From positions 1 to 22,524 of IMG/VR virus record IMGVR_UViG_3300006920_000279: a stretch of 22,524 nucleotides of DNA; one strand, 5' to 3'. Within the stretch, counting starts at the first letter, position 1. Every line of letters begins with the position of its first letter. Shown here one piece after another: positions 2,865 to 20,363 of the stretch. This stretch comes from a virus. The notes under the pieces are model-generated. The model was not told the DNA's origin. It ran no database searches and saw only the letters and a program-made list of their open reading frames with translations. Both the position numbers and the translations under genes were made by a program.

Positions 2865-2886
2865 CACAAACAACAACCAACAATAT

Positions 2887-2916
2887 ACCTTACTATTAAT
2901 TTAGTGAGGTTTTTTT
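2887..2916 (+). terminator. Rho-independent terminator of the plus small-gene operon
   Basis: The inverted repeat ACCTTACTA / TTAGTGAGGT, with a short AT loop and one G-T pair, is followed directly by seven T. It lies 22 nt after the last gene of the operon. Confidence 0.85.
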
Positions 2917-2921
2917 ATACC

Positions 2922-2980
2922 CTATAATTAACTATAAATAATACCTATAATAGACTATAATACTATATCAATATACTATA
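2922..2980. repeat. Phased CTATAA repeats
   Basis: CTATAA or CTATA occurs at 2922, 2932, 2945, 2955, 2963 and 2976, close to one helical turn apart, in nearly pure AT DNA. This would unwind easily and could be a protein-binding array. Confidence 0.6.
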
Positions 2981-3133
2981 CAAATATATTGGGGAATGTA
3001 GAAGGGAATAGATGAGAATGTATTGTAAACTTAAACACGATAAAAATATTCAATCTAAGGCTACATAACAACAAATCAATACTAACATACCATATAAATA
3101 ATATAATAGCTTAGAGAGGCTTAGAATAGATAT

Positions 3134-3231
3134 TAACGTAAAACAAAGGTTGGTAATGTGTAGTAGGTCAATTAAATGAATTCAACGTAAAATGAATGAT
3201 GGGTATGTGTAGTAGCTCAATTCAATGAAAT
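3134..3231. repeat. 49-bp imperfect tandem repeat, two copies
   Basis: Copy 1 (3134-3182) and copy 2 (3183-3231) align without gaps at about 80% identity. The strongest conserved blocks are AACGTAAAA, ATGTGTAGTAG and TCAATT.AATGAA. The repeats lie in non-coding DNA. Confidence 0.8.
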
Positions 3232-3332
3232 CAAATAAAATTCAATGATTTAAAATAAATATTAAAAAGGTTCTATAGGGGTTTTTTTACTGTATTGTAA
3301 CTTGCTGGTTGTTAGTGTTTAATAAATAATTT

Positions 3333-3367
3333 AGTTCCCCAACTTTTACAAATCGAGGAACTTTTTT
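3333..3367 (+). terminator. Second plus-direction hairpin terminator
   Basis: AGTTCC at 3333 pairs with GGAACT ending at 3362, and TTTTTT follows. The loop is long (about 18 nt), so strength is uncertain. It could stop read-through into the opposing minus-strand operon, or end an unseen transcript from the repeat region. Confidence 0.55.
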
Positions 3368-3376
3368 ATAATTATG

Positions 3377-3556
3377 TTAATTTACGTAATCTAGTATGTA
3401 TCTTTTACAGGATTCAATACCTATATTCTTGTTTCTGGAATTGTACCACCTAATAACCTTGCCTTTAGGATTTGATACTATTAGCTTGAATTTATCTATG
3501 GCTCTATGTTCTATTATTATTAAATGCTTATTGTATGCTAATGATTCTCTTTTCAT
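3377..3556 (-). CDS. Hypothetical small basic protein, 59 aa
   Basis: Last gene of the minus operon. Read on the minus strand it begins MKRESLAYNKHLIIIEHRAI and ends RYILDYVN. It is basic with alternating hydrophobic residues, probably a small alpha/beta protein. Its ATG overlaps the stop of the upstream HTH gene by 4 nt. A hydrophobic frame on the opposite strand here is a shadow. Family not recognised. Confidence 0.65.
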   Translation of the reverse strand: MKRESLAYNKHLIIIEHRAIDKFKLIVSNPKGKVIRWYNSRNKNIGIESCKRYILDYVN

Positions 3557-3954
3557 ATTCTATGTTTATTTACTGCTCTTGGTGTTATATCAAGTATGTC
3601 AGCTATCTCTTTACTGGTTATATTTGGTTTTAGACTTACTATCTCTCTAACCTTCTCTTTAGTCTTTATCTTAGCTTCTCTACTTATCTCTCTTATCTTA
3701 ACATCTATATCCAAACTTCTTCTCATATCTGCTAGATACTTCTCTTGTCTTTGTTTATATTCTTTACCCCAATTATATGTATGGTGGTGTATCCAAGACA
3801 TAGGTTTGTTATAGTCTTCAAAGTTGCTTATGTAATGCCTAGACCAAATATTATCTGGTTTAGACATCCACACAAACTCATAACCATCATATATTACTTT
3901 ATGGTTAGTTACTTCTTTAAGGTTCTTTAATTGTTCTGTAGTCCAGTTAGTCAT
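3553..3954 (-). CDS. Protein with C-terminal helix-turn-helix, 133 aa
   Basis: The N-terminal half (residues 1-75) has WTTEQLKNLKEV and an aromatic-rich block containing WSRHYISNFEDYNKPMSW and WIHHHTYNWG. A basic helical linker follows (about 85-106). Residues 111-131 form a typical helix-turn-helix, NITSKEIADILDITPRAVNK, so DNA binding is likely. It begins on the last base of the preceding gene's stop (TAATG on the minus strand). It may regulate phage promoters; target unknown. The aromatic N-terminus is reminiscent of HNH-type or phage regulatory proteins, but I see no complete HNH motif. Confidence 0.8.
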   Translation of the reverse strand: MTNWTTEQLKNLKEVTNHKVIYDGYEFVWMSKPDNIWSRHYISNFEDYNKPMSWIHHHTYNWGKEYKQRQEKYLADMRRSLDIDVKIREISREAKIKTKEKVREIVSLKPNITSKEIADILDITPRAVNKHRI

Positions 3955-4957: not shown

Positions 4958-5476
4958 ATGTTTATTAGTTAAATATCTTTCTAATCCTGCTAAAGCTCTC
5001 CAAGCTACTTTAGTTAAGTGTAGTACTCCATCATCATCTAAAGGGTCTATAGTATGGTCTATTAAGTGTCTAGTTAAAGCATCATACTCATCTTTAGACT
5101 TATCCATATCCCAATGCAGAGGTTTATCTGGATGGTGTTGGTCATTACCTGCTTTACTACACTTAGACACCTCTTTTAAAGCATTAGGAAAGTACTTTAA
5201 TACTCCACTAAATACAGGTGTAGCTTTTCTCTCTTCTGCTTTTAGAATAGCATCTGCTACTATTCTTGAGTCTGTACAGGAGTAAGAAGGGTCTAACTCT
5301 TCTGTAGGCTTAACAACCTCAGCCTCCACCTCTATATGCTTAACAGACTTATTAAATCCGTTAAGCATATCTTGCTCATAGTTTAAACCAGAATTACCGT
5401 TCTGAGCTATGATTCTCATTCTTCTTTCGTGTTCTTCTGATTCTAGCATCTCTATGTATTTCTCTCTTGTATTCAT
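4955..5476 (-). CDS. dATP/dGTP diphosphohydrolase-domain protein, 173 aa
   Basis: The C-terminal half matches the phage family annotated as dATP/dGTP diphosphohydrolase (N-terminal domain type, MazG-like all-alpha). Visible blocks are PVFSGVLKYFPNALKEVSK (87-105), GNDQHHPDKPLHWDMDKS (110-127), DEYDALTRHLIDH (129-141) and DDDGVLHLTKVAWRALAGLE (147-166). The conserved acidic and His residues suggest metal-dependent nucleotide hydrolysis, altering the dNTP pool during infection. The N-terminal about 85 residues are variable. The gene overlaps the DnaA-like gene by one base, suggesting a replication module. No PurZ-like gene is visible, so base replacement (Z-DNA genome) is not indicated. Family assignment is by memory of the motif pattern; activity is inferred. 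Confidence 0.75.
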   Translation of the reverse strand: MNTREKYIEMLESEEHERRMRIIAQNGNSGLNYEQDMLNGFNKSVKHIEVEAEVVKPTEELDPSYSCTDSRIVADAILKAEERKATPVFSGVLKYFPNALKEVSKCSKAGNDQHHPDKPLHWDMDKSKDEYDALTRHLIDHTIDPLDDDGVLHLTKVAWRALAGLERYLTNKH

Positions 5477-5892
5477 TATCTTATTGTTTTTAATATTTGT
5501 TGTAGTTCTGTTGCATCTTTACCCATAAGAGCATTGTACACTTCTTGTCTTATATCACTTATAATACTTTTCTTAGCTATGCCACTATTTTTGTAGACAT
5601 CTGATGATTCTACTATAGCTCTTAATTCTAAGTAGTACATCTTATACTTAGGTGTTACCTCTAAGTCGTTATTTACTGTTTTTATAGAGTGTATTACGTT
5701 ATCGTGCTTCTGACCAAATAAATCTCCTATATCTTGTAATGTCATACCAGTAAGTTCTCTAATTATCTTACAAGCATACATTCTAGGTCTAACTATATTA
5801 GTCTTTCTACTCTTTATTCTGCAATCTGTCTCGAAGTAGTTGTTTACTTGAGTTATTGTCTCCTTCGCTATCTCGTATTGTTCCTTTGTCAT
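5476..5892 (-). CDS. DnaA domain IV-like DNA-binding protein, 138 aa
   Basis: Residues about 10-80 match the C-terminal DNA-binding domain of the replication initiator DnaA. They show an N-terminal helix with VNNYF, a basic RPRMYACKIIRELTGM region, then the helix-turn-helix LQDIGDLFGQKHDNVIHSIKTV (about 51-72), which corresponds to the DnaA signature around RDHTTVLHA. The AAA+ ATPase domain of full DnaA (about 450 aa) is absent, so it could bind DnaA-box DNA without ATP-driven unwinding. It could serve as origin binding factor, repressor or competitor of host DnaA. GAAGGA before the ATG supports this start. The C-terminal about 50 residues are unassigned. Confidence 0.85.
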   Translation of the reverse strand: MTKEQYEIAKETITQVNNYFETDCRIKSRKTNIVRPRMYACKIIRELTGMTLQDIGDLFGQKHDNVIHSIKTVNNDLEVTPKYKMYYLELRAIVESSDVYKNSGIAKKSIISDIRQEVYNALMGKDATELQQILKTIR

Positions 5893-9167: not shown

Positions 9168-9187
9168 ATTATTAACACATATAATTT

Positions 9188-19412: not shown

Positions 19413-20363
19413 ATGGCAACAAGTACAAGTATTACTACTACCTATGCTGGAGAAAGCGCTGGAAAATACATCTCGGCAGCTTTATTGGCAGGTAACACAA
19501 TCGCTAACGGAGGTTTAACTATTAGACCAAACGTTAAATTTAAAGAAGTTGTAAAAAGATTAGAATTAGACGGTATCGTAAAAGATGGTACTTGTGATTT
19601 CGCTGACACTTCTACATTAACACTTACTGAAAGAATCCTTCAACCAGAAGAATTTCAAGTAAACTTAGAATTATGTAAGAAAGATTTCCGTTCTGATTGG
19701 GATGCTATTAAAATGGGTTATTCTGCTTTCGATAACTTACCTTCTTCTTTCCAAGACTATTTAATCGGTCACGTTGCTGCTAAAGTAGCACAGAAACAAG
19801 AACAAAACATCTGGGGTGGTACTAACGCTACTGCTGGAGAGTATGATGGTTTTTCTACTTTATTAGCTGCTGACGCTGATTTACCTGCTGCAAACGAAGT
19901 TACTGGTACTTCTGTAACTGCTGCAAACGTTGTAGATGAATTAGGAAAAGTTGTAGATGCTATTCCTGCTGCTTTATACGGAAGAGATGACTTATATATT
20001 TATGTTGCTCAAAACGTATTTAGAAGTTATAAAAGAGCCTTAGGAGGATTTCAAAGTGGAGGTCAAGGAGCTGCTGGTTTCCAAGATAAAGGAAACAATC
20101 AAGATATCAACATCTCTTACTTTGATGGTGTAAAAATCTTTATGGCTAACGGACTTGCTTCTGATACTATGATTGCTACTACTAAAGATAACCTACATTT
20201 TGGTACTGGTTTGATGTCAGATTCTAATGAGGTAAAAATCTTAGATATGGCTGACTTAGATGGTTCACAAAATGTAAGAATCATTATGAGGTTTACTGCT
20301 GGTGTTCAGTATGGAGTTGTTGAAGATATCGTAACTTACGGAATCGTTAACGGAGCTAACTAA
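19413..20363 (+). CDS. Major capsid protein (HK97 fold), 316 aa
   Basis: The shell subunit. It begins MATSTSITTTYAGESAGKYI and contains GGLTIRPNVKFKEVVKRLE, CDFADTSTLTLTERILQPEEF, DFRSDWDAIKMGYSAFDNLP and HVAAKVAQKQEQNIWGG. These blocks I recognise as typical of flavobacterial phage capsid proteins. The C-terminal half has FDGVKIFMANGLASDTMIAT, an HK97-type P-loop/A-domain pattern. Codon use shifts to more TTC, AAC, ATC and GCT than in early genes, as in highly expressed genes. It lies 29 nt after the scaffold and is followed by a terminator. Confidence 0.9.
   Translation: MATSTSITTTYAGESAGKYISAALLAGNTIANGGLTIRPNVKFKEVVKRLELDGIVKDGTCDFADTSTLTLTERILQPEEFQVNLELCKKDFRSDWDAIKMGYSAFDNLPSSFQDYLIGHVAAKVAQKQEQNIWGGTNATAGEYDGFSTLLAADADLPAANEVTGTSVTAANVVDELGKVVDAIPAALYGRDDLYIYVAQNVFRSYKRALGGFQSGGQGAAGFQDKGNNQDINISYFDGVKIFMANGLASDTMIATTKDNLHFGTGLMSDSNEVKILDMADLDGSQNVRIIMRFTAGVQYGVVEDIVTYGIVNGAN

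Follow-up and report, generated by a model that had tools for sequence, protein, structure and literature searches.

Homing-endonuclease insertion sites in phages represent a known kind of locus. In the satellite PLE of V. cholerae, RepA proteins and origins form matched pairs and changes in the origin escape cutting, and Odn of ICP1, a T5orf172 nuclease, is aimed at the PLE origins (PMC8263062).

The locus described here lies in a 22,524-nt stretch of marine flavobacterial phage DNA (hereafter the window) and comprises a gene for a small HTH protein, a dyad and a conserved non-coding core. As at phage homing-endonuclease sites, GIY-YIG and T5orf172/MUG113 genes are inserted beside a conserved site; unlike at those sites, the target would be a non-coding protein-binding dyad, and cleavage is putative. 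Like intrinsic (bidirectional) terminators, the window dyad is a stem that has A and T runs and lies where operons converge; unlike these, dyads of this type are near-constant in length and have outer arms that switch with the neighbouring HTH helix. As with the RepA/origin pairs of PLE, a DNA-binding protein and its site vary together among relatives, and, as with Odn, a T5orf172-type nuclease appears to be tied to the site, with a DNA-binding part resembling the site's own protein (PMC8263062). However, PLE origins contain three semi-palindromic iterons and their RepA/origin pairing was tested, whereas here one dyad and a small HTH protein are known from sequence, and, unlike in the ICP1/PLE system, the nuclease genes lie inside the phage locus itself (PMC8263062). 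A literature search for the phenomenon returned no relevant report. What had been put forward as a repeat-rich gap would become a protein and site whose pairing can be tested and whose specificity varies naturally several times over, a useful case for studying site recognition by a small HTH.

Layout and conservation of the non-coding element

The 22.5-kb virus record has no end repeats and is probably a fragment. Megablast and blastn searches revealed no near match to the window among phage records. One of its proteins (19413-20363) shows 33.5% identity to a protein of Nonlabens phage P12024S/L; a search of Nonlabens phage P12024S for the HTH protein revealed no homolog. Relatives were collected via the 133-aa minus-strand protein (Table 1), yielding 35 loci, to which further ones were added later; the gene contexts compared leave out duplicate versions of a single contig, L004, and the truncated loci L014 and L035. 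Against genome contigs, this protein gave just four short matches of 18-19 residues, all in Rhizobium-type genomes, which we dismissed as chance, and a plasmid search returned nothing useful.

Table 1. Features at the HTH locus and the DnaA-like protein gene; positions are those of the window
Feature	Position	Strand	Remarks
Last ORF of plus operon, 67 aa	2661..2864	+	phrog_7744, function unknown; ORF list, PHROGs
Intrinsic terminator of plus operon	2887..2910	+	9-pair stem, then TTTTTTAT
CTATA cluster, 6 copies	2922..2980	+	Lies outside conserved core
Conserved non-coding core	2977..3331	-	Constant words between highly variable slots
49-bp unit, copy 1	3135..3183	+	Tandem comparison
49-bp unit, copy 2	3184..3232	+	Tandem comparison
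Conserved box around CTATAG	3268..3290	-	Similar box ~50 nt past dyad in Maribacter phage Panino
30-bp dyad AGTTCC...GGAACT	3333..3362	-	Proposed cognate site of HTH protein; terminator-like hairpin
59-aa ORF between HTH gene and dyad	3377..3556	-	Common to window and L007
133-aa protein, C-terminal HTH, family c0	3553..3954	-	Proposed dyad binder; profile, relatives, model
DnaA domain IV-like protein (Bac_DnaA_C)	5476..5892	-	E 9e-12, over cut-off; phrog_30669 'replication initiation protein'

Iterated nhmmer searches located a non-coding element 3' of the HTH gene in 32 of the 35 loci, and the three loci lacking it (L013, L036 and L037) are contigs that end at the HTH gene or 240 nt beyond. 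Since homologs were retrieved via the HTH gene, its position next to the element follows in part from the way they were collected. A scan using the element pattern alone, which served as a partial check, recovered seven additional contigs; the end of the HTH gene adjoins the element in five of them, and the other two begin inside it. There is one element per record (8 of 8 records), and contig ends coinciding with the element were attributed to assembly breaks. The likely layout is seen in the relative G002, where the terminase and small ORFs close a long plus block; next come the element, then a minus operon of short length and, finally, plus structural genes. The portal and following genes stand at both ends of this contig (L050-L052) as diverged copies 36.8 kb apart, which suggests circular permutation or a mixed population.

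The gap is gene-free, as had been claimed, with no ORF of at least 50 aa in 2865-3376. Within it, the repeats reported earlier were recovered, although their meaning changed. CTATA starts at 2922, 2932, 2945, 2955, 2963 and 2976, and six copies within 60 bp occurred neither in 1000 dinucleotide-shuffled versions of the region nor in 200 of the whole window; the cluster is therefore beyond shuffles, whereas 'phased' is a generous term for spacings of 10, 13, 10, 8 and 13. The two 49-bp tandem units are 82% identical, compared with a best 40-60 bp tandem identity of 0.61 among 60 shuffles, so the duplication is real. Neither repeat is conserved, however. Per fixed 130-nt span, the window and L005 each have four CTATA copies and the other 28 of 30 loci have 0-2, and the 49-bp unit is present twice in group 1 and once in group 2 relatives, unlike the several conserved direct repeats of an iteron origin. 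Thus, an origin argued from either repeat was dropped.

The element extends from the hairpin at 3333-3362 to about 2977, between two terminators. That of the plus operon comes after the 67-aa ORF, and several relatives have another hairpin with a T-run in its place. The original prediction held that the hairpin at 3333-3362 has no gene before it; it begins 14 nt beyond the stop of the 59-aa minus ORF, with stem and T-run beside a gene end as in an intrinsic terminator. Its stem scores 27 with 13 pairs in minus-strand RNA and 20 with 12 pairs in plus-strand RNA. Because the T-run is stronger on the plus side though the stem favours minus, it may terminate both ways, and because G-U pairs favour minus-strand RNA, selection for termination shapes the dyad as well. 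It is conceivable, then, that the gap is a convergent-operon junction with back-to-back terminators, at which the HTH protein acts on the dyad as a roadblock or regulator and has no role in replication. The convergence of the plus and minus operons at the gap, the two terminators, and a T8 past the dyad on the minus strand in group 2 agree with such a junction, which nevertheless would not need a 300-bp core and has no downstream minus-strand gene with read-through to control; we consider it a somewhat unlikely explanation.

The same hairpin had also been taken to allow an untranslated transcript. With the hairpin excluded, consensus folds of the interior from the 11 sequences of group 1 gave z-scores of -0.21 on the minus strand and +0.18 on the plus strand; the 20 sequences of group 2 gave -2.22 and +0.74, respectively. 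The group 2 minus-strand value, a weak signal which none of 60 shuffles reached, speaks for an RNA gene; against this, group 1 has no interior signal on either strand, single-sequence z-scores were +1.55 (plus) and -1.30 (minus), a convincing promoter was not found, and Rfam gave no match at the gathering threshold and one irrelevant match at E 3.6. With no clear conserved fold and a hairpin that lies behind a minus operon, an RNA gene terminating there is highly improbable, and an ncRNA at the element is disfavoured. We read the gap as a conserved DNA control site or functional DNA element. In this respect the initial idea of a functional non-coding element, possibly an origin, is still viable, although the grounds given for it fail.

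In the group 2 element, divergence is 0.066 over the first 110 interior columns and 0.215 over the remainder, and four-fold-site divergence is 0.111 for the HTH gene and 0.124 for the terminase gene; as gene c5 also reaches 0.215, the excess divergence of the element is not universal. Beyond about 16-30 bp, linkage in this element is 0.10-0.13 against 0.10 in shuffled data and 0.20-0.31 in the HTH gene, and the group 1 element shows 0.14 against 0.11 shuffled; linkage is almost equally low in certain small genes, namely c4 of group 2 and c13 of group 1. In the group 2 element (L019-L033, L068-L081), constant words of 5-10 bp alternate with short variable slots that have few alleles and are unlinked beyond ~16 bp. 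TACGTTA in the element was considered as a late promoter and dropped, its context being unlike the AAAAATACGTTA motif ahead of late genes. This motif, probably a phage promoter, precedes plus-strand late genes at 9174, 17361, 18817 and 21029 of the window.

Co-variation of the HTH recognition helix and the dyad

Within the HTH protein family, the N-terminal part is rather constant and the recognition helix is variable. The predicted fold is a long helix followed by the C-terminal HTH (mean pLDDT >90 over residues 81-130). It gave short HTH matches without significance against the PDB (best E 0.64), a PDB search by sequence yielded nothing useful, and no recognised initiator domain was found in the protein.

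Of 38 elements, 36 have a strict dyad of 26-31 nt where one is expected, despite differing arms, and a contig end truncates the remaining two (L071 and L073). In the 13 of 30 loci without an insertion, only 3-15 nt separate the stop of the HTH gene from the dyad. An exact match of both arms is confined to the dyad in seven of eight records; in G004, the matches listed comprise an exact one for one arm and one with two mismatches for the other. The arms differ with the helix: VNKH, the type of the window, is found with AGTTCC or GTTCC, VEYHR with TCTTCG, VEYHK with TTTAGGG, VERY (as in L007) and VERH with TGTCG, and VQRC with ATGTCA. L099, L100 and L112, retrieved once the pattern was known, conform (VERH with TGTCG). 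A post hoc correspondence between residue 129 and bases (E with TCG, Q with TCA, N with TCC) fails in L008-L010 and is violated by VEYHK with TTTAGGG. Maribacter phage Panino (paper PMC11590407) encodes a homolog with 33.6% identity in the same layout: the dyad lies ~10 nt beyond the stop, a CCTATAG box is found at about +95, and the type is VNRY with TGTTTCC right behind the gene.

Recognition-helix distance was compared with 15-nt DNA windows in group 1 genomes (10, then 11 including L007). In the 11 genomes, which represent just five helix types (L011 and L012 share the same helix and the same dyad), the correlation was highest at the dyad (r 0.91; 0 of 5000 permutations for the maximum over 99 windows), and 30 control windows in the gene before the HTH codons reached a maximum of 0.24 with a mean of 0.01. 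A partial Mantel test of helix against dyad gave 0.87 (p 0.0002). In the 10 genomes, the correlation reached 0.82-0.94 at the dyad, was 0.38-0.63 in the stretch separating it from the gene, and was approximately zero some 20-25 nt past the dyad. A lower second rise occurred inside the core, to 0.59 with 10 genomes and 0.47 with 11. In a comparison of the window with L007, identity is 89-97% per 100-nt block over the first 300 nt of the HTH gene and ~90% in the ORF between gene and dyad, whereas helix and dyad both differ; this contrast is weaker evidence if the 59-aa ORF came later.

Site specificity therefore co-varies with the recognition residues. Tight linkage is the main caveat of the module reading. 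Because helix codons and dyad are so close in the uninterrupted loci, one short replaced block could shift both, and a block of HTH codons and hairpin swapped by recombination would produce the association without any binding; recombination is wide among the relatives, and G002 encodes an ERF recombinase. Linkage alone is nonetheless unlikely as the explanation, considering that the association falls off so soon past the dyad and is also lower in the stretch leading from the gene to it, that whatever sequence is swapped in still forms a dyad of similar length, and that the layout is kept in Panino.

Inserted nuclease genes and the possible role of the locus

Among the 30 contexts, the gap between gene and dyad was empty in 13 and held a small ORF in eight, a GIY-YIG-type gene in four, a T5orf172/MUG113 gene in three, a Mom-family gene in one, and in one a protein judged HNH-like by eye, without a Pfam match. 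GIY-YIG scores were slightly below the Pfam cut-offs in L011 and L031 and above them in L015; in addition, L013 has a GIY-YIG protein (below cut-off) and L112 a MUG113 protein. Across 29 records, four of five MUG113 matches lie between HTH gene and dyad and the fifth immediately before the HTH gene, and PF01541, at E up to 0.05, also had five matches, one of them (in the record of L112) away from the locus. When 1116 ORFs are compared with the c0 profile, the HTH of the inserted nuclease in L022 and L023 ranks first among the non-c0 matches (E 4e-4 and 6e-4), which is only suggestive of a tie between nuclease and site. The CAGATT block is altered in 2 of 20 group 2 sequences, L031 (GIY-YIG type) and L020 (Mom family), both of which have a large gene immediately before the element.

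Our analyses established the layout, the conservation, the single-copy dyads and the sharp co-variation of helix and dyad. We interpret the locus, with a probability of roughly 0.6, as a DNA element with a dyad-binding HTH module and as a candidate origin. The HTH protein is predicted, with good confidence, to bind the dyad. The 30-bp dyad at the element edge would be its sole genomic site, the two would form a matched specificity module, and a protein dimer may hold the two half-sites. Less certainly, the dyad, the CTATAG box and the core would constitute a replication-origin region, with terminators on both flanks keeping transcription out. Nucleases inserted at the locus may cut rival versions and thereby favour new protein/site pairs. 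Origin recognition is tentatively the likeliest role of the module, because a unique specificity-switching pair adjoins a long stretch of conserved non-coding DNA that terminators insulate, and because it is analogous to the RepA/origin pairs of satellite PLE.

Roadblock, partition and packaging roles are alternatives of lower probability. A packaging (pac) or partition site for the HTH protein would accord with the single dyad per record; moreover, the gene adjoining the terminase large subunit has no PHROGs or Pfam match, so that the small terminase was not identified. The element is ~3 kb away from the terminase gene in G002, however, many contigs continue across it, which is incompatible with a cos end, and a ParA-like partner was not seen, all of which makes such a site quite improbable.

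A more speculative and rather doubtful extension of the candidate-origin reading is that an origin-recognition module switches specificity as a unit, with an initiator-like HTH and a single dyad diversifying together because nucleases in the same gap, one with a c0-like HTH, attack rival sites. The variable slots of the core, which in group 2 diverge faster than four-fold sites of the HTH and terminase genes, would belong to the same conflict. If the element is an origin, it would provide a defined replication module for marine flavobacterial phages and would extend origin-targeted nuclease conflict past the ICP1/PLE system.

Other, possibly replication-related features of the window

The phage does encode a DnaA domain IV-like protein, as originally predicted (Table 1), and tblastn of this protein against phages returned nothing useful. 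Its recognition segment is variable in 10 relatives (KHDN, KHEN, QHAN, NYDT and THGS), and no site for it was found. This segment tracks no window of the element convincingly; the best correlation with an element slot (r 0.60) was attributed to the gap of L005. No site within one mismatch of the DnaA box TTATNCACA was found in the element of the window. The skew check proposed at the outset gave no support, since third-codon GC skew has no consistent switch at the element and the GC skew profile of the window is explained by coding strand.

A tandem 19-bp repeat, GTTTAATATGGAGGG, is present in four copies at 339-412. All 26 relatives listed have between 1 and 8 copies of the related word TTTAATATG following their terminase gene. 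The TTTAATATG repeats offer an alternative, as an independent rival origin candidate or an operator region. At 580-592, the AT-rich genome contains a CGCGCGCG stretch, of which a variant form is found in L005, L009 and L016.
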